Shown piece by piece: positions 4,411-11,017 of a DNA stretch of 47,331 bases (its first letter is position 1; every line of letters starts with the position of its first letter). The position numbers were made by a program, and so were the translations under genes. The DNA comes from Campylobacteraceae bacterium (GTDB lineage: Bacteria > Campylobacterota > Campylobacteria > Campylobacterales > Arcobacteraceae). The stretch covers positions 1 through 47,331 of the forward strand of contig JABXII010000004.1 of NCBI GenBank assembly GCA_013373175.1, given 5' to 3'. The notes under the pieces are model-generated. The model made no database searches and had not been told where the DNA came from. It worked only from the letters and a program-made list of their open reading frames with translations.

Positions 4411-5502
4411 ATGCTTTTTTTTAAACTCTCTGCATTTTATTTCTTCTATTTTGCAGCGGTTGGAGTATATGTAATATTCTTACCAAAAGTTTTACATGAT
4501 ATTGGCTATTCAGCCTTTGAAATTGGAGTTGTATTTGCTATTGCTCCATTAATGAAGTTTATTACTCCATTTTTATTTTTAAAACATATCACTTTAAATC
4601 AAAATGTTTTTAAAACAGCTCTGCTTTTATCAGTAGCTTGCTCTTTAATGCTTTATGTAACATTAGAGAACCTTTATTTGCTTATGATTAATAATGCTAT
4701 TTTAGCAGCTTGTTTATCTATGATATTACCTTATTTAGAAGTAACAGCTGTAAAGGTATTAGGAAAAGGAAGATATGGTAAATCAAGGCTTTATGGCTCA
4801 ATTGGTTTTATGATTATTTCACTTGTACTAGCACAATTTCTTACAAACCCATATATTGCAGTTCATTACTATTTAGCAGTAAATGTACTAACCGTTCTTT
4901 TTGCCTTTTTATTGCTTAGATATGACGATGTAAGTCATGATGAGGCGAGCTCAAATAGTGAGTTCTCTTTCTTTAAATATTGGCCTCTTTGGATAAGTCT
5001 ATTCTTTATGCAGTTAAGTTTTGGTGCTTTTTATAACTTCTTTACTATTTATGAAACTGAACATGGAATAAGTCTTGAGATGACTTCATATCTTTGGTCT
5101 TTTGGTGTTATTTGTGAAATCTTTATTCTTTATTTTCAGGGACCACTATTAAAGAAAAACTTACTTGCATTAATCAAATTTTCTGTAGCAATCACTGCTA
5201 TTAGATGGTTTATTGTTTATATGTATCCTGATAATTTAACACTTACTTTTATAAGTCAAGGAATACATGCCTTTTCATTTGGATTATTCCATAGTGCTGT
5301 TGTAATGTATCTTTATACGCTATATGAAAATAAAAAACTTGCTCAACAATTTATGTTTGGTGTTGCTTATGGCTTAGGTGGTTTTTTAGGAGCTTTAATT
5401 GCAGGATGGCTTTATGGAGAGAATTTATTCTTATATTCAACTATTTTTGCACTATTTTCTTTACTATTTCTTTACAGTAAAAGACTTCCTAAAGAAGTCT
5501 AA
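4411..5502 (+). CDS. MFS transporter, LacY/HcaT-like (MFS_1_like)
   Basis: A 363-residue protein with about 11-12 hydrophobic helices. The N-terminal segment (FYFFYFAAVGVYVIFLPKVL) and SRLYGSIGFMIIS near residue 127 resemble the LacY-like MFS_1_like group that includes the putative 3-phenylpropionate permease HcaT. The substrate cannot be read from sequence. There is no clear ribosome-binding site: its ATG directly follows the RDD stop codon, so coupling is likely. It meets the convergent TPR gene with a 4-nt overlap of stop codons. Confidence 0.75.
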   Translation: MLFFKLSAFYFFYFAAVGVYVIFLPKVLHDIGYSAFEIGVVFAIAPLMKFITPFLFLKHITLNQNVFKTALLLSVACSLMLYVTLENLYLLMINNAILAACLSMILPYLEVTAVKVLGKGRYGKSRLYGSIGFMIISLVLAQFLTNPYIAVHYYLAVNVLTVLFAFLLLRYDDVSHDEASSNSEFSFFKYWPLWISLFFMQLSFGAFYNFFTIYETEHGISLEMTSYLWSFGVICEIFILYFQGPLLKKNLLALIKFSVAITAIRWFIVYMYPDNLTLTFISQGIHAFSFGLFHSAVVMYLYTLYENKKLAQQFMFGVAYGLGGFLGALIAGWLYGENLFLYSTIFALFSLLFLYSKRLPKEV

Positions 5503-6365
5503 ACTGTTGCTTTTAATTTAAGTATTTCTTGAATCTTTTCATGCTTGATTAAAGTTTCAAACTCTTCATCATTTTCTATTTCTTCAACATATTGTTCATT
5601 TAATTCTATTGCTTTTTCTAAATCTAAAATAGCATTCTCTTCTTGTCCTAAAGCAGCATAGATTTTTGATCTTTGATAATAAGCATTTGCATAAGAATCA
5701 TCTATTCCTAAAGCTTGATTTGTAAGGTTTAACGCCCAATTTGATTCACCCATATCAAGCACTGCATCTGCTTTGTAAGTTAAGGCTTCAACTTCATCTG
5801 GTCTAATATTTAAAATCTCGTCATATATTTCAATTTTACCAGTAGGAGTTGACTCTTGACTTGATCTAAGCCATAAAGAGTGAATAGTATTGGTGACTTC
5901 AATTTCATGTTGATTTTGCTTAACTTGTTTACTTCTTTTCTCTAAATCTTTTTCAAAAGTTAGTAGTCTAGCTTCATACTCTTCAATGATTTTCGAAGTT
6001 TTATCATCAATCATAGTTTTTACTTTTTCATTTGTATCTTTAATTGAGGTCCAACCTACAATTACAAGTACAGATGTAGCAGCTGCAATGATATAAAACA
6101 TATTATTAATTGTTGAAGTTGCATAGTTTACAACATTATTATTCATTTGAACTTCTTTTTTTGCTAGTGTTTCATGAAGTTCAACTTTTAAATCTCTATT
6201 TTCATCTCTTAACTGTTTTATTTCATGTAAAATATAGTTTTCAACAAAGGGATTATAAAGAGGTTTCTTTAAATTTGATACCCTTTCATTGATTTTATCT
6301 TCATTAACTGCTGCAGCAAAGACTATATTTGTAATTAGAAAAAACAATAAAAATATTTTTTTCAT
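5499..6365 (-). CDS. Membrane-anchored tetratricopeptide-repeat protein with coiled coil
   Basis: A 288-residue protein. A hydrophobic N-terminus (MKKIFLLFFLITNIVFAAA) reads as a Sec signal peptide. A transmembrane segment sits at about residues 88-106 (FYIIAAATSVLVIVGWTSI), then a charged coiled coil at about 108-155, then two or three TPR units at about 160-260 with LGQEENAILDLEKAIELN. TPR domains mediate protein contacts, so this is probably an envelope scaffold; the partner is unknown. AAGGA precedes the ATG. It lies downstream of the ectoine/ask genes on the same strand but with its own ribosome-binding site and no obvious link. Confidence 0.7.
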   Translation of the reverse strand: MKKIFLLFFLITNIVFAAAVNEDKINERVSNLKKPLYNPFVENYILHEIKQLRDENRDLKVELHETLAKKEVQMNNNVVNYATSTINNMFYIIAAATSVLVIVGWTSIKDTNEKVKTMIDDKTSKIIEEYEARLLTFEKDLEKRSKQVKQNQHEIEVTNTIHSLWLRSSQESTPTGKIEIYDEILNIRPDEVEALTYKADAVLDMGESNWALNLTNQALGIDDSYANAYYQRSKIYAALGQEENAILDLEKAIELNEQYVEEIENDEEFETLIKHEKIQEILKLKATV

Positions 6366-6388: not shown

Positions 6389-7753
6389 CTAAGATAACAT
6401 TTTTTTGTATAAAGTTTCCAAAGCTATATCAGAAATATTTTGAGATACACCAATGTGGAAAGAAATTTTAGATGGACTCATATCAAACATTTCAAAAGAC
6501 ATATTCTCTTCTTTTAACGCAGTAATAGCGTCTACTATGGCAAAGGCATTCTCTCTTAGTCCAATTCCAACTAGTGTAATTATAGCTAAATTGTATGTAA
6601 CATAAATGTTATCAGTTTTTAATCTTCGTTCTATTTCTCTTCTTAAATTATTGATATTTCCTTTTAAATCTTCTTGATCAACTAAAATTGAAATATCATC
6701 TCTATCAGTAGGATAATGGTAAGTGTTTATTCCATATTCACTAAAAATCTTTAAAAGTTCTGCTGTAAATCCTATCTCATCTGCTAACATATCTTTTTGT
6801 AAATGGATGGCTGCCATATTATCAAGTTTTGCAATACCTACTAAATCTTCCATTGGTACTCTCTCATTTAAAATAAGTGTACCTTCATGTTCTGGGTTAT
6901 TTGTATTTCTAATATTAATTGGTATTTTACTTTTTTTACAATTTAACATTGCATTAAAATGGAATACGTTAAACCCTTTTGAACTTAATAGCCTTAATTC
7001 TTTAAAAGTAAGTCTAGGAATAACATTAGCTCCATCAATTACTCTTGGGTCAACTTCATAAACTCCATTTGTATCTGTCCAGTTTTCATAAATGTCTGCA
7101 TCTAAAGCATAAGCAAGTTCTCCACCAGTAAGGTCACTACCACCTCTACTCATAACAGAAATCTCTTTATCTTCATTTATTCCATAAAAACCTGGTACTA
7201 AATAGTAGTCTGCTTTTTCAAAGCTAAAATACTCACTAATATTTTTGTGGGTTTTCTTACAAACTTTTCCATCACAATATTCAGAAGTTAAGATAAAACC
7301 AAACTCTTCTGGAAGCATTAATTTAATATTTAAACCATTTTTTCTCATATATTCAGTGATGATTTTTGCATTATAATGCTCACCTCTTGATAAAAAATAA
7401 GCATTTCTCTTATCACCTTTAAAAGAGTTATTATTTAAATCTTTCACTAAAGAATCAATAATATGTTTACTATCTACTTTTAAATCTTTACAAAGTTGTT
7501 CAAACTTATTGATAACAGCATCAAAACTATCTTTTGCAGATACATCTATTTTATGTTCACTAAAATGATTTCCATCAGTTGAAAGGTTTAGCAAGTGGTC
7601 AGTGATTTTTTCATTGTGAGTGTCATCTCTACCTGGAGCAGAAACAACTATAACTTTTCTTTTTTCATCGCTTTTAATAATGTTAAAAACTTTTTTTATC
7701 TGGGAGGCATCTTTTACTGAACTTCCTCCAAATTTACATACTTTTATATTCAT
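6389..7753 (-). CDS. ask: Aspartate kinase of the ectoine-cluster type (Ask_Ect)
   Basis: A 454-residue aspartokinase that phosphorylates aspartate, the first step toward aspartate-semialdehyde, the substrate of EctB. It shows the N-terminal KFGGSSV motif, the catalytic region SRGGSDLTGGELAYALDADI with NWTDTNGVYEVDPR, and a C-terminal ACT pair of about 150 residues (LVGIGLRENAF). In many bacteria a special aspartokinase paralogue that escapes normal feedback is linked to ectABC. Position at the end of the ectoine operon and the divergent sequence between the motifs support that subtype. AAGGAAT gives the start; it follows the regulator gene by 20 nt. Confidence 0.88.
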   Translation of the reverse strand: MNIKVCKFGGSSVKDASQIKKVFNIIKSDEKRKVIVVSAPGRDDTHNEKITDHLLNLSTDGNHFSEHKIDVSAKDSFDAVINKFEQLCKDLKVDSKHIIDSLVKDLNNNSFKGDKRNAYFLSRGEHYNAKIITEYMRKNGLNIKLMLPEEFGFILTSEYCDGKVCKKTHKNISEYFSFEKADYYLVPGFYGINEDKEISVMSRGGSDLTGGELAYALDADIYENWTDTNGVYEVDPRVIDGANVIPRLTFKELRLLSSKGFNVFHFNAMLNCKKSKIPINIRNTNNPEHEGTLILNERVPMEDLVGIAKLDNMAAIHLQKDMLADEIGFTAELLKIFSEYGINTYHYPTDRDDISILVDQEDLKGNINNLRREIERRLKTDNIYVTYNLAIITLVGIGLRENAFAIVDAITALKEENMSFEMFDMSPSKISFHIGVSQNISDIALETLYKKMLS

Positions 7754-7773
7754 TTTTTCTTATTCCTTATAAG

Positions 7774-8421
7774 TTAAATACTTACCTTATATCCTCTATG
7801 TCTAACTGTTTCAATAAAGTTTTCATCAAACTCTTTTTTTAGACTATTTCTAATTGAATTAATATTAACTTCAATTACATTATCGGATACCATCTCTGGC
7901 TCATCCCAGTTTGCTTGTAGAAGTTCATCTTTTGAGATAGGTGATCTATATCTATTTTTAATTAAGTAGCTTAATATAGAAAAAGATTTACCTTTAAAGA
8001 ATACTTTTTTATCATCATTTACTAAAGCTTTCTCTTCTAAGTCTGCTTTATAATTGCCTTTATAAAAAAGTTCTTTTTTAAAGTTATCTCTGTGAATAGA
8101 CTCCATCTTTGCTAAGATATATTCATTTGATGTTGGTTTTTTTAGTATTGAAATTGCACCTTTTTTTAAAAGACTTACCTCTAACTGTTTAGACCAATCA
8201 TCAACTAGAAAAACTACAGCTGTTACTCTATTATCTACATTTTTTAATATTTTCTTACATTCAAAATAGTTGTTGCAATCTACTATTACTAAATTATAAT
8301 ACCTTACTTCGCTATGATAAATTGCATCACTAATATCTTCTGCAATATCTACTATATATAGTTGTTCTTCGTCTATGTATTCTAATAGTTCTTCATTTAA
8401 GTTATATGACAATAGTCTCAT
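7774..8421 (-). CDS. Atypical OmpR-family regulator resembling HsrA/HP1043, inside the ectoine operon
   Basis: A 215-residue protein with an N-terminal receiver-like domain (about 1-115) and a C-terminal winged helix. The winged-helix block WDEPEMVSDNVIEVNINSIR...ETVRHRGY closely recalls the orphan Helicobacter/Campylobacter regulator HP1043/HsrA. The receiver keeps an Asp at the usual phosphoacceptor position (D48 in VIVDCNN) and the Lys of KKP, but lacks the acidic pair after beta-1 (N7-L8), so normal phosphorylation is doubtful. Its ATG overlaps the stop of the 102-aa gene (ATGA). A regulatory role on ectoine genes is inferred from position. It may be a paralogue of the essential HsrA rather than HsrA itself. 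Confidence 0.8.
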   Translation of the reverse strand: MRLLSYNLNEELLEYIDEEQLYIVDIAEDISDAIYHSEVRYYNLVIVDCNNYFECKKILKNVDNRVTAVVFLVDDWSKQLEVSLLKKGAISILKKPTSNEYILAKMESIHRDNFKKELFYKGNYKADLEEKALVNDDKKVFFKGKSFSILSYLIKNRYRSPISKDELLQANWDEPEMVSDNVIEVNINSIRNSLKKEFDENFIETVRHRGYKVSI

Positions 8422-8726
8422 TTAATATATACACTCCTAACCACTTCATTATCTCTTTTTAAAATTAGAGTATTATCTTCTTCTATGGCTAATGAGTCAA
8501 TAAAAAATGTTTCAATATCGTCATAATCTTTGAAAAATTTATCTATTATCGTTTTAGCTATATCAAAAGAAGACCTTTTGCTTAGTTCTATAATTAAAGC
8601 ATTATCATTTAAAACAATTTTTTGATTGATTACTTTAAACTCTTCAAAGCTATAAATGAACTTTATAAATTCAAATTTCTTCTCTCTTGATATATTTAAA
8701 TAATTTTTAATATAGATAAATCTCAC
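8418..8726 (-). CDS. Unknown 102-aa protein between ectC and the HsrA-like regulator
   Basis: I do not recognise this protein. It begins with GTG, preceded by GAGGA lying inside the end of ectC, and starts 2 nt after the ectC stop. It overlaps the regulator start by 4 nt. The sequence is a small mixed alpha/beta protein rich in Lys, Ile, Phe and Asp (SFEEFKVINQKIVLNDNA; then FFKDYDDIETFFIDSLA), with no signal peptide, transmembrane helix or Cys. Translational coupling to both neighbours argues that it is a real gene working with the ectoine enzymes or, more likely, the regulator. Confidence 0.75.
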   Translation of the reverse strand: MRFIYIKNYLNISREKKFEFIKFIYSFEEFKVINQKIVLNDNALIIELSKRSSFDIAKTIIDKFFKDYDDIETFFIDSLAIEEDNTLILKRDNEVVRSVYIK

Positions 8727-8728
8727 AA

Positions 8729-9124
8729 TTAGTCCTCTAGAGGATATACTCCATTTTCATCATGGTGTTCAGTTCCCTTAATTGGAGGATTAAATACACA
8801 AATAAGTCTCATGTCTTCAGTTCCACCATAAAGGTTATGGTCATCATGATTGTTTAAAGCATACATTACACCATCATAGATGTCATGTATTTCACCAGTT
8901 GCTAAATCTTCAATTTTTCCATTTCCAGCTACACAATAAACTGCTTCTAAATGGTTTTGGTAATGAATATGCGTTTTTGTATTTGCTTTAATTATTGTTT
9001 CGTGAAATGAGAATCCCATTCCTTCATCTTTTAAAAGCATTCTTCTACTAACCCATTGTCCACCTTCAGCAAATACTTCTCTTTGGGTACCCATTACGTC
9101 TTTTTTGATATCTTTAACAATCAT
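8729..9124 (-). CDS. ectC: L-ectoine synthase
   Basis: A 131-residue cupin enzyme that closes N-gamma-acetyl-diaminobutyrate into ectoine. The start (MIVKDIKKD), FSFHETIIKANTKTHIHYQN, HLEAVYCVAGNGKIEDL and VFNPPIKGTEHHDENGVYPLED are diagnostic. Proposed iron ligands by alignment with studied EctC proteins are Glu60, Tyr88 and a His in the HDDH stretch (H93/H96). The ATG immediately follows the ectB stop codon, and AGGAG lies in the ectB end. The C-terminal tail is slightly short compared with some homologues. Confidence 0.96.
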   Translation of the reverse strand: MIVKDIKKDVMGTQREVFAEGGQWVSRRMLLKDEGMGFSFHETIIKANTKTHIHYQNHLEAVYCVAGNGKIEDLATGEIHDIYDGVMYALNNHDDHNLYGGTEDMRLICVFNPPIKGTEHHDENGVYPLED

Positions 9125-10405
9125 TTAAAACTCTCCTGTTAATTTTTCTTTTTTATCTGCTACTAGTTTTCCAATTGCAGAATCTAATCTTTTTAAACCT
9201 TCTAATAAAGTCTCTTCATCAATAATTAATGGAGGTAAGAATTTAACAATTTGATCTTCACTACCACAAGTTTCTACAATTAGTTTTTCTTCGAATGCAT
9301 AACTTGATATCTCTCCAGCAACTGAATTGTCACCTTTGATTTCAAATCCATATGCCATTCCTCTACCTCTAACTTCAACATCAAAAGTATCTTTATATTT
9401 ATCAGCTATTTTTTGAAGCTCTTCTTTTAAAAGTTTCTCTTTATATTTAACTGCATTTGATAAATCATCATTTTGCCAATATTGTTCAATTGCAACTTTT
9501 GCTGCAACGAAAGCTAAGTTATTACCTCTAAATGTACCTGTGTGCTCACCTGGTTTCCATTGGTCTAAATCTGGTTTTAAAAGTACAAGTGCCATTGGTA
9601 ATCCACCACCAATAGATTTTGAAATAGTTACGATATCAGGATTAATCCCTGCAAATTCAAATGAGAAAAATTCACCAGTTCTTCCATTACCAACTTGAAT
9701 ATCATCAATGATTAATAAAATATCATACTCTCTACAAATAGATTCAAGTTCTTGTAACCACTCTTTAGATGCAACGTTAATTCCACCTTCACCTTGAATA
9801 GTTTCAACAATAACAGCTGCTGGAATATCTAAACCACTACTACTATCTTCTAAGAATTTTCTAAAAATAGCCATAGTATTCATATCACCAAAATATCCAT
9901 CAAATGGCATGAAAGTAACATTTGATCTACTAATATAACTTTCATCTCTATAGTCATTGTTACCAGTAACAGAAGATGAACCTTGAGTTAAACCGTGGAA
10001 ACCATTTGTAAATGAAACTACATTTGATCTTCCCTTTACAAGTCTTGCAAGCTTTAAAGCTGTTTCAACGGCATTAGTTCCTGTTGGTCCTGTGAATTGA
10101 AGTTTATAATCAAGGTTTCTAGGTATTAAAATTGTGTCTTGAAAAGTTTGTAAAAACTCTTTTTTTGCACTTGTTGCCATATCAAGACCATGTACAACAC
10201 CATCTTTTTGAAGATATTCAATTAATGCTGAACTAACATGTTCATTGTTGTGTCCATAGTTTAATGTTCCAGCACCTGCAAAAAAGTCAATATAGTCTTC
10301 ACCTTGTTCATTTGTTAAAATAGCTCCCTTTGATTTCTCAAAAATTGTTGGGAAACTCCTGATATAACCTCTTACTTCTGATTCTAAATTTTCAAAAATT
10401 CTCAT
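9125..10405 (-). CDS. ectB: L-2,4-diaminobutyrate-2-oxoglutarate transaminase
   Basis: A 426-residue PLP-dependent class III aminotransferase that makes diaminobutyrate from aspartate-semialdehyde. Landmarks are FFAGAGTLNYGHNNE, FTGPTGTNAVETALKLAR, SFTNGFHGLTQGS, the acidic cofactor site IDDIQVGNGRTGEFFSFE, the PLP lysine in TISKSIGGGLPMA, and GTFRGNN. Length and motif spacing match EctB rather than GabT or ArgD. It lies 12 nt after ectA with ribosome-binding site AAGGAAG and is followed directly by ectC. Confidence 0.96.
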   Translation of the reverse strand: MRIFENLESEVRGYIRSFPTIFEKSKGAILTNEQGEDYIDFFAGAGTLNYGHNNEHVSSALIEYLQKDGVVHGLDMATSAKKEFLQTFQDTILIPRNLDYKLQFTGPTGTNAVETALKLARLVKGRSNVVSFTNGFHGLTQGSSSVTGNNDYRDESYISRSNVTFMPFDGYFGDMNTMAIFRKFLEDSSSGLDIPAAVIVETIQGEGGINVASKEWLQELESICREYDILLIIDDIQVGNGRTGEFFSFEFAGINPDIVTISKSIGGGLPMALVLLKPDLDQWKPGEHTGTFRGNNLAFVAAKVAIEQYWQNDDLSNAVKYKEKLLKEELQKIADKYKDTFDVEVRGRGMAYGFEIKGDNSVAGEISSYAFEEKLIVETCGSEDQIVKFLPPLIIDEETLLEGLKRLDSAIGKLVADKKEKLTGEF

Positions 10406-10417
10406 TTTATTCTTCCT

Positions 10418-10906
10418 TTATTTTTTAAACGGCCCTATTTTATATAGAACCTCTTCTTCATGTTGATTGGTAAAATCACTTGCTTCGAAAAACTCCATAC
10501 TATTCATTTGTGTTTCATAATGGTCTGCAACTTTTTCAAAAACTCTAATAGATGAGTTATTACTTGGTGATACAGTAGTATGTAGATAATTGATATTTAA
10601 CTCTTCTCTTTGAACTATATCCATTATTAATCTTCTAGCTAAATCATTTCCCCTAAAATCTGAGTCAACTGCAACTTGCCATATAAACAGAGTATTTGGC
10701 TCATTTGGAATCATGTATCCAGATACAAAGCCAATTACTTTATCTTCATATTTCGCAATTGAACAGATATCAGAAAAATGTGTAGATTGTAACAGATAAA
10801 GATATTCAGAGTTCACATCTAATACCTTTGTACTTTTCACAAGTTCGTAAATCTTTTTTGCATCTTCTTTACAAGGTTTACAAATATTTATTTCACTTTT
10901 TGACAT
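10418..10906 (-). CDS. ectA: L-2,4-diaminobutyrate acetyltransferase
   Basis: A 162-residue GNAT-fold acetyltransferase that acetylates diaminobutyrate on the gamma nitrogen. It carries the EctA hallmarks LDVNSEYLYLLQSTHFSD, a beta-4 WQVAVDSDFRG with acetyl-CoA loop (RGNDLARRL), and TTVSPSNNSSIRVFEKVA. It is the first gene of the ectoine operon, with AAGGA before the ATG. The 245-bp upstream region shared with the divergent fcc genes contains several matched repeats that may be regulatory. Confidence 0.94.
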   Translation of the reverse strand: MSKSEINICKPCKEDAKKIYELVKSTKVLDVNSEYLYLLQSTHFSDICSIAKYEDKVIGFVSGYMIPNEPNTLFIWQVAVDSDFRGNDLARRLIMDIVQREELNINYLHTTVSPSNNSSIRVFEKVADHYETQMNSMEFFEASDFTNQHEEEVLYKIGPFKK

Positions 10907-10955
10907 TTGTTTGTCCTTAAAATATTTTATTGATATTAAAAAAGTTACACACTTT

Positions 10956-10972
10956 ATGTAATTTTTTTACAT
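10956..10972. promoter_or_regulatory. 17-bp perfect dyad in the ectA leader/promoter
   Basis: ATGTAA-TTTTT-TTACAT at 10956-10972, 50-66 bp upstream of the ectA start codon. It is a perfect dyad and sits where an operator or the ectA promoter would be. The target protein is unknown. Confidence 0.4.
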
Positions 10973-11000
10973 CTTGATTGTAAATTTATAACATATGAAA

Positions 11001-11017
11001 CTTAAGTGAAACTTAGA
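11001..11017. promoter_or_regulatory. CTTAAG-N5-CTTAGA direct repeat, candidate OmpR-type operator
   Basis: CTTAAG at 11001-11006 and CTTAGA at 11012-11017 are spaced 11 bp start to start, the usual geometry for OmpR-family tandem sites. The 11-mer CTTAAGTGAAA (11001-11011) recurs inverted at 11067-11077. The region lies between divergent ectA and fccA. That the HsrA-like regulator binds here is inferred. Confidence 0.45.

Follow-up and report, generated by a model that had tools for sequence, protein, structure and literature searches.

A putative tandem operator and a built-in CosR/HsrA-type paralogue at the ectoine operon of Arcobacteraceae

What controls an ectoine operon that encodes a regulator of its own? 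The question is raised by a 47,331-nt stretch of DNA (hereafter the window; positions 1 to 47,331 of contig JABXII010000004.1, assembly GCA_013373175.1) from a Campylobacteraceae bacterium of the Arcobacteraceae lineage, with a genome of 2.76 Mb. On the minus strand of the window, the open reading frames (ORFs) follow the order ectA-ectB-ectC-orf102-regulator-ask, where orf102 encodes a small protein and the regulator is an OmpR-type relative of CosR from Campylobacter jejuni and HP1043 (HsrA) from Helicobacter pylori. A first-pass annotation, made from the sequence alone, had described this compact layout with an ATGA overlap between orf102 and the regulator, and all six ORFs were found at the place and in the order that it gave. 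Little is settled about the way in which bacteria perceive salt and turn on ectoine synthesis, and the ectoine-regulation papers among the matches listed hardly deal with Campylobacterota. In the reading that we prefer, with a probability of roughly 55%, the operon is under two layers of control, one formed by a MerR-family protein and palindromes in front of ectA, and the other by the CosR-derived regulator together with ORF102.

Tandem palindromes before ectA and a MerR-family gene

Upstream of ectA, the palindrome TTACAT-N5-ATGTAA occurs twice, each time with one mismatch: at 10967-10983 as a promoter-proximal putative operator and, 22 bp away, at 10945-10961 as a second one (no strand is assigned to either). 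The first-pass annotation mentions neither these palindromes nor the TPR gene described below. The extended -10-like element TATGTTATAAA of ectA lies at 10985-10995 (minus strand), and many relatives have a similar element there; an HsrA-box-like sequence, TCTAAG-TTTCA-CTTAAG, takes the -35 position (11001-11017, minus strand).

The sample comprised 104 Arcobacteraceae genomes, 44 of which carry an ectoine synthase gene above the cut-off (a 21-bit ectC match in G428 fell under it and was left out of the count). All 44 ect loci were annotated by script; the ect loci L084, L114, L119, L120 and L122 are cut by contig ends. We found that ectA upstream regions share an extended -10-like element followed by close-by palindromes repeated every 22 bp. 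The 160 bp before ectA at 41 loci hold 82 palindromes with up to two mismatches, as against a mean of 3.6 after shuffling; at least one is present in 39/41 regions and at least two in 31/41, and the two loci with none are L114 and L115. Spacers of four or six bases gave no excess at ectA in the 41 loci, and a palindrome with a four-base spacer was rejected as the operator on this ground, the five-base spacer being the right one. TTACAT-N4-ATGTAA occurs 49 times in the genome of the window when one mismatch is allowed, versus 14 times for the reversed control, and is perhaps the site of another regulator.

Single sites of the five-base type were identified 17 times in the same genome at one mismatch, fewer than the 38 of the reversed control, and of the 15 that were read, 13 fall within ORFs and the remaining two make up the ect pair. 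Single sites therefore mean little, and the argument is carried by the pair and its place: two sites with one mismatch each stand 22 bp apart at the ect promoter and nowhere else in this genome. When up to three mismatches were allowed, double sites were found at 53 distinct places in 45/104 genomes, compared with three places for the reversed pattern. Fifty of the 53 stand before osmolyte-type genes (34 ectA, 8 proV, 7 BCCT and 1 KamA-family gene), the names of the BCCT, ProV and KamA genes having been checked by NCBIfam on one example each. The KamA example scored under the lysine 2,3-aminomutase cut-off, so a solute role for this gene is a guess. Of the remaining three places, those in G407 and G408 fall within one coding gene, and the one in G416 follows the end of an unrelated gene.

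The distribution of a small MerR-family gene tracks that of the double operator. The protein has 112 residues; the homologue from locus L083 matches PF13411 at 28.8 bits (cut-off 21.6), and the copy of the window's genome, 82% identical to it, is encoded outside the window on contig 3 (G000:C3:224459-224794). Its best NCBIfam match is HspR (NF047375) at 36.3 bits, far under the cut-off of 105, and its best bacterial solved-structure match is GlnR (E-value 9e-4), in a list that also contains chance matches to viral fusion proteins. At an E-value of up to 1e-10, the gene was found in 57/104 genomes, and in 40/44 with ectC. A double operator is present in 43 of these 57 genomes versus 2 of the 47 others (Fisher p 1.4e-14, kinship ignored), and the two MerR-less cases are those in G407 and G416, at places without an osmolyte-type gene. 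The genomes of the palindrome-less loci L114 and L115 are likewise without a MerR gene at this threshold, the match in G096 (L115) being 30% identical. The merR gene lies upstream of ectA in 24/44 ect loci, with the regulator in between in four of these, and in several genomes, some without ectC above the cut-off, BCCT or proVWX genes adjoin it or lie close by. No transporter operon stands beside merR in the window's genome, whereas in the close relative G380 this place is taken by proVWX, which has a perfect operator. Among 397 genomes drawn from the phylum, 30 had ectC, 7 of them outside the Arcobacteraceae; merR was found in 3/7 of these outside ect loci and palindromes before ectA in 4/7.

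The palindromes might alternatively be bound by CosR or by its paralogue from the ect operon, with the merR gene as a mere neighbour. CosR-type genes do occur in many Campylobacterota genomes (among the best 80 matches), and the TAAG-type double box adjoins the palindromes. However, merR adjoins an operator-bearing BCCT gene or lies near an operator-bearing proV in G252, G338, G428 and G429, where no ectC scores above the cut-off, and G096 has a CosR-like gene beside ectA, yet neither a MerR gene nor a palindrome (L115). The HP1043 site, given as TTTAAG-N5-TTTAAG in the accessible part of the source, also differs from TTACAT-N5-ATGTAA (PMC8345958). We regard binding of the palindromes by CosR or its paralogue as decidedly improbable.

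The CosR/HsrA-type regulator of the operon

The regulator (7774-8421, minus strand) has a clear Trans_reg_C domain (PF00486) and a receiver domain below the Pfam threshold, while no MarR match was found in Pfam at an E-value of up to 1, which places it outside the MarR-type EctR/CosR regulators. Its best solved-structure sequence matches are 8uvx and 8uuz (CosR) and 2hqr (HP1043), with E-values of about 1e-24, and its predicted model, with a predicted local distance difference test score (pLDDT) of 94.2, fits DNA-bound CosR at a Z-score of 23.5 over 210 residues. The same genome encodes a separate CosR on contig 12 (C12), which is the best other match at 38% identity to the regulator. In this second protein the receiver motif and the phosphorylation site are intact and a histidine kinase gene is adjacent, fitting the CosR-CosS pair arrangement that the accessible part of a published account describes, including for Arcobacter butzleri (PMC3938529).

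A score of 189 bits or more defined ect-type regulators, and 17 of the 19 proteins so identified were taken into a tree of 46 proteins. They form one clade (support 100/100) on a long branch, which makes up one group with the Campylobacterota CosR sequences (100/99). The divergent regulator of L115, from another genus and encoded beside ectA, joins the ect clade (97/99, long branches). Because the regulator nests with CosR in this tree and the genome keeps its own CosR, it is, judged by sequence, a duplicate of CosR/HsrA and not the CosR orthologue of this genome. The HsrA relation and the atypical receiver claimed in the first-pass annotation thus held up, with the correction that the protein is a paralogue rather than HsrA itself.

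The acidic pair of the receiver is absent from all 19 aligned ect regulators, two of which retain one acidic residue there, and the column of the phosphorylated aspartate holds D, E, K, N, Y, R or Q. As the pair is lost and the aspartate is not conserved, control by phosphorylation seems unlikely for the group. It is also unlikely that the ect regulator is essential for viability, since it occurs in just 19/104 genomes of the family.

We identified the regulator in 19/44 genomes with ectC and in 0/60 others (p 4.7e-9, kinship ignored), within the ect locus in 18 of the 19. It follows orf102 in 11 genomes and ectC directly in 3, stands upstream of ectA in 4 (L080-L083), and lies elsewhere in 1; in this last genome, G424, the ect-type regulator is paired divergently with the MerR gene at a place other than the ect operon (L145 5001-6236). 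Absence of orf102 and the regulator from all other ectoine loci, an outcome that would have spoken against the first-pass annotation, was not observed: the regulator recurs in 19/44 ectC genomes and orf102 in 18/44 loci. Neither gene was found at the 7 Campylobacterota ect loci outside the family (3/7 read in part).

Two CosR-like sequences, from G435 and G096 (L115), scored 111.6 and 110.3 bits, below the threshold, and were excluded from the ect regulators. The one in G096 (L115 1377-2039) is another degenerate CosR-like regulator, divergent from ectA, in a genome with no MerR gene and no palindromes at ectA. In L080-L083, a TAAG-type double box and a -10-like element recur upstream of the regulator in the interval between merR and the regulator, and in L080-L082 a weak palindrome is also found upstream of the regulator.

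The CosR-like protein could also serve a role outside ectoine metabolism, such as general stress control, and ride in the operon because it is wanted in salt. No regulator-specific site was found at ectA, and CosR is described in the accessible part of one study as an essential oxidative-stress regulator (PMC3139631), both of which fit such a role. Against it, 19/19 copies are in ectC genomes, 18 of them within the locus, and the window's genome keeps a separate CosR. We consider a non-ectoine role unlikely, although worth keeping in view.

ORF102 and the other genes of the operon

The gene orf102 (8418-8726, minus strand, GTG start) lies directly 3' of ectC and overlaps the regulator by the four bases ATGA. 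It was found directly 3' of ectC in 18/44 loci and in 18/18 ect loci that have it at all. Among the 44 genomes with ectC, 15 carry both orf102 and the regulator, 3 orf102 only, 4 the regulator only and 22 neither, an association with p 9e-6 (kinship ignored).

These numbers bear on the view, close to that of the first-pass annotation, that the operon answers to the built-in HsrA-like regulator and to nothing else, with ORF102 as the sensor or anti-regulator of this protein, bound to it as a pair. The ATGA overlap, the presence of the regulator in the genomes of 15/18 orf102 loci and its restriction to ectC genomes agree with this view. However, the pair is not obligate: orf102 occurs without the regulator in G225, G439 and G440, the reverse is seen in G424, G290, G120 and G437, and orf102 remains behind ectC where the regulator stands upstream of ectA (L080-L083). 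Moreover, 25/44 ectC genomes have no regulator, and 21 of the 23 readable ectA upstream regions among them keep the palindrome. As the most widely kept feature is the palindromic operator that tracks MerR, the built-in regulator is probably not the sole control, and its acting alone appears just as improbable as CosR binding to the palindromes. On the whole, the interpretation given in the first-pass annotation is partly supported.

Sequence searches with ORF102 gave no Pfam match at an E-value of up to 1, no NCBIfam match at up to 0.1 and nothing convincing among solved structures, and Foldseek with the predicted model returned no match at 0.001 or better. No ACT model appeared among the Pfam matches of 24 ORF102 members at an E-value of up to 0.1. 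The model itself (pLDDT 93.5, predicted template modelling score 0.83) has a beta-alpha-beta-beta-alpha-beta ferredoxin-like fold with a C-terminal hairpin. Its four best structural matches are regulatory (ACT-type) domains of aspartokinases, with Z-scores of 9.0, 8.7, 8.7 and 8.7 over 71-74 residues, where a best Z of 7-8 is typical for models without a clear relative. The top one is an aspartokinase regulatory subunit (73 residues, 2.1 Å), and H. pylori NikR follows at Z 8.1. An origin of ORF102 as a split-off ACT domain of the operon's aspartate kinase (Ask) was rejected, since its profile shows no likeness to the ACT region of that enzyme.

Searched with a profile of the 24 members, the 397 phylum genomes yielded nothing convincing outside the Arcobacteraceae, and two weak matches were discarded as chance. 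Weak matches in G278, G403, G449 and G452, at a second place in G423 and in nine further sequences (E-values 5e-4 to 0.01) were dropped as chance; the one in G452 (L096) is a 128-residue protein among other genes. Six places with orf102 paralogues lie outside ect loci, and some of the genomes concerned (G422 and G432) have no ectC, so the family serves elsewhere too. In two paralogues, at L090 5066-5380 and L091 5183-5506, the expected start shows ATC in place of ATG, GTG or TTG; this codon, which in L091 stands behind a Shine-Dalgarno-like stretch, is possibly a rare start codon. The paralogue of L090 lies between msrB-like and msrA-like genes (4689-5881; names given by eye).

We propose, with low confidence and from the model, a metabolite-sensing or enzyme-tuning role for ORF102. 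A competing explanation gives it no role in transcription: ORF102 would be an unrelated small protein, or else would partner EctC or Ask in a structural or allosteric capacity. Its invariable position behind ectC, its closest folds in aspartokinase regulatory domains and the paralogues in ectC-less genomes are consistent with this, whereas its association with the regulator and the dissimilarity of its profile to the operon's own Ask ACT region are not. We hold this explanation to be a serious contender at somewhat less than even odds.

The biosynthetic part of the operon is well supported. On the minus strand, ectA (diaminobutyrate acetyltransferase, 10418-10906) matches TIGR02406 at 174 bits (cut-off 120.6), ectB (diaminobutyrate transaminase, 9125-10405) matches TIGR02407 at 646 bits (cut-off 552) and ectC (ectoine synthase, 8729-9124) matches PF06339 at 186 bits and NF009806 at 189.5 bits (cut-off 128), so that all three exceed their curated NCBIfam cut-offs, as expected of an ectoine biosynthesis operon. 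The gaps are 12 bp between ectA and ectB, 0 between ectB and ectC, 2 bp between ectC and orf102, and 20 bp between the regulator and ask. Compared with three relatives, both orf102 and the regulator are under purifying selection, with ratios of nonsynonymous to synonymous substitution rates (dN/dS) of 0.09-0.19 for the former and 0.03-0.08 for the latter.

The ask gene (aspartate kinase, 6389-7753, minus strand) passes the TIGR00657 subfamily cut-off (242 bits versus 208.7) and falls just under that of NF006540 (409 versus 434 bits). A second aspartokinase-like gene was seen by eye elsewhere in the genome (L174), and it is by its position in the operon that Ask may be viewed as a specialised kinase. 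In L082 (4294-5663), the aspartate kinase is split into two overlapping frames of 333 and 123 residues. A TPR protein with a hydrophobic N-terminal start is encoded at 5499-6365 on the same strand, starting 23 bp 3' of ask; it may share the ask transcript as a possible seventh gene. The TPR gene is present in 14/44 ect loci, 13 of these 14 having ask within the stretch read, and a similar gene, identified by eye, lies in G397 with proX on one side and a KamA-family gene on the other (L280 1512-2372). Its recurrence in both settings may tie it to osmoprotection. An ectD-like gene, found in 15/44 ect loci of relatives (for example L083 4459-5367) and not in the window, is ectoine-hydroxylase-like, the example scoring 312 bits with TIGR02408, just under the cut-off of 336.5.

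Proposed control and comparison with known systems

In the preferred two-layer reading, the small MerR protein most likely binds the tandem palindromes, which overlap the presumed transcription start of ectA. The location of the palindromes just downstream of the -10-like element suggests repression, which would be released at high osmolarity. This layer would operate across the Arcobacteraceae and some other Campylobacterales and would extend to betaine transporters (proV, BCCT) in relatives. The second layer, seen here in the Arcobacteraceae only, would consist of the CosR/HsrA-derived regulator without a conserved phosphorylation site. Being encoded inside the operon, the regulator would follow ect transcription in its level. 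ORF102, with its ferredoxin/ACT-like fold and made next to EctC, may sense a pathway metabolite and tune EctC, Ask or the regulator. The Arcobacteraceae would thus have added the regulator and ORF102 onto a MerR osmoprotectant regulon.

Several observations weigh against this reading. The sites used by MerR proteins frequently lie in the interval from -35 to -10 rather than downstream of it. The link between MerR and the operator is one of association in sequence data, and the co-occurrence tests ignore phylogeny; a double operator is missing from 14 of the 57 genomes with MerR, 17 MerR genomes are without an ectC above the cut-off, and G433 has ectC and one perfect palindrome with no MerR match, in a genome that is 84% complete. 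The window's own regulator retains an aspartate in the phosphorylation column. The ACT-like fold of ORF102 comes without sequence support, and ferredoxin-like folds are common. Finally, the HsrA-like box scores on average 8.32 at 19 loci with the regulator in the genome and 8.20 at 23 loci without it. The sequence at 11001-11017 is a good counterpart of the published HP1043 consensus, but with scores so alike it was rejected as evidence for binding of the regulator. Since the -35 element of the Campylobacter sigma-70 promoter is similar, the box may be mere promoter.

A fuller version of the model would make the MerR protein an osmosensor-repressor with a previously undescribed regulon of the Campylobacterales, and the CosR duplicate a phosphorylation-free regulator with ORF102 as its gate. 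Produced from the same transcript, ORF102 would sense ectoine or diaminobutyrate through its ACT fold and provide end-product feedback on ectoine synthesis. We consider the whole of this quite unlikely. What the analysis supplies is a concrete operator sequence and a MerR protein as the candidate regulator of several osmoprotectant genes, together with a duplicated regulator of the CosR/HsrA kind in which the conserved phosphorylation site is gone and which apparently took on a pathway-specific use. The operator, the MerR candidate and the CosR duplicate are each directly testable.

In the open-access literature, no report that ascribes ectoine regulation in Campylobacterota to a CosR-like or MerR protein was found among the matches listed, in parts of the sources, which agrees with the earlier remark that an HsrA-type regulator is not known from ect clusters. 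The accessible part of an Arcobacteraceae genome comparison reports ectoine synthesis in water-associated species and contains neither 'response regulator' nor 'MerR' (PMC10336517). CemR, an HP1021 homologue, is an atypical response regulator of Arcobacter and Campylobacter, and the word ectoine does not occur in the accessible part of the paper on it (PMC11334517). A 2018 review, in its accessible part, lists ectR-type genes near the ect genes of 97/510 putative producers and, in its survey, no ect cluster with a glnR- or cosR-type gene nearby; it also presents GlnR as a negative regulator of ect genes in Streptomyces coelicolor, and BusR of Lactococcus as a compatible-solute regulator and proposed sensor of cytoplasmic ionic strength (PMC5924519).

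The candidate regulators can be set beside these and other systems. HspR and the Bacillus proteins GlnR and TnrA are short MerR proteins like the one described here, which differs in its link to osmoprotectant genes, in its putative operator TTACAT-N5-ATGTAA and in scoring far under the HspR cut-off. EctR of methylotrophs and CosR of Vibrio regulate ect genes as well; both are of the MarR type, in contrast to the OmpR and MerR families described here, and the operator probably differs as well. Streptomyces GlnR, an orphan OmpR-type protein, shares family type and ect regulation with the present regulator but is a nitrogen regulator, and the 2018 survey found no glnR-type gene near ect clusters. 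BusR, of the GntR type, resembles our proposal in the kind of signal and differs in family and target. The closest counterparts are CosR of C. jejuni and HP1043 of H. pylori, which are likewise OmpR-type proteins with a degenerate receiver and give the best sequence and structure matches; unlike them, the ect regulator is a long-branch paralogue inside an ect operon, in a genome that keeps its own CosR with an intact phosphorylated aspartate and a kinase.

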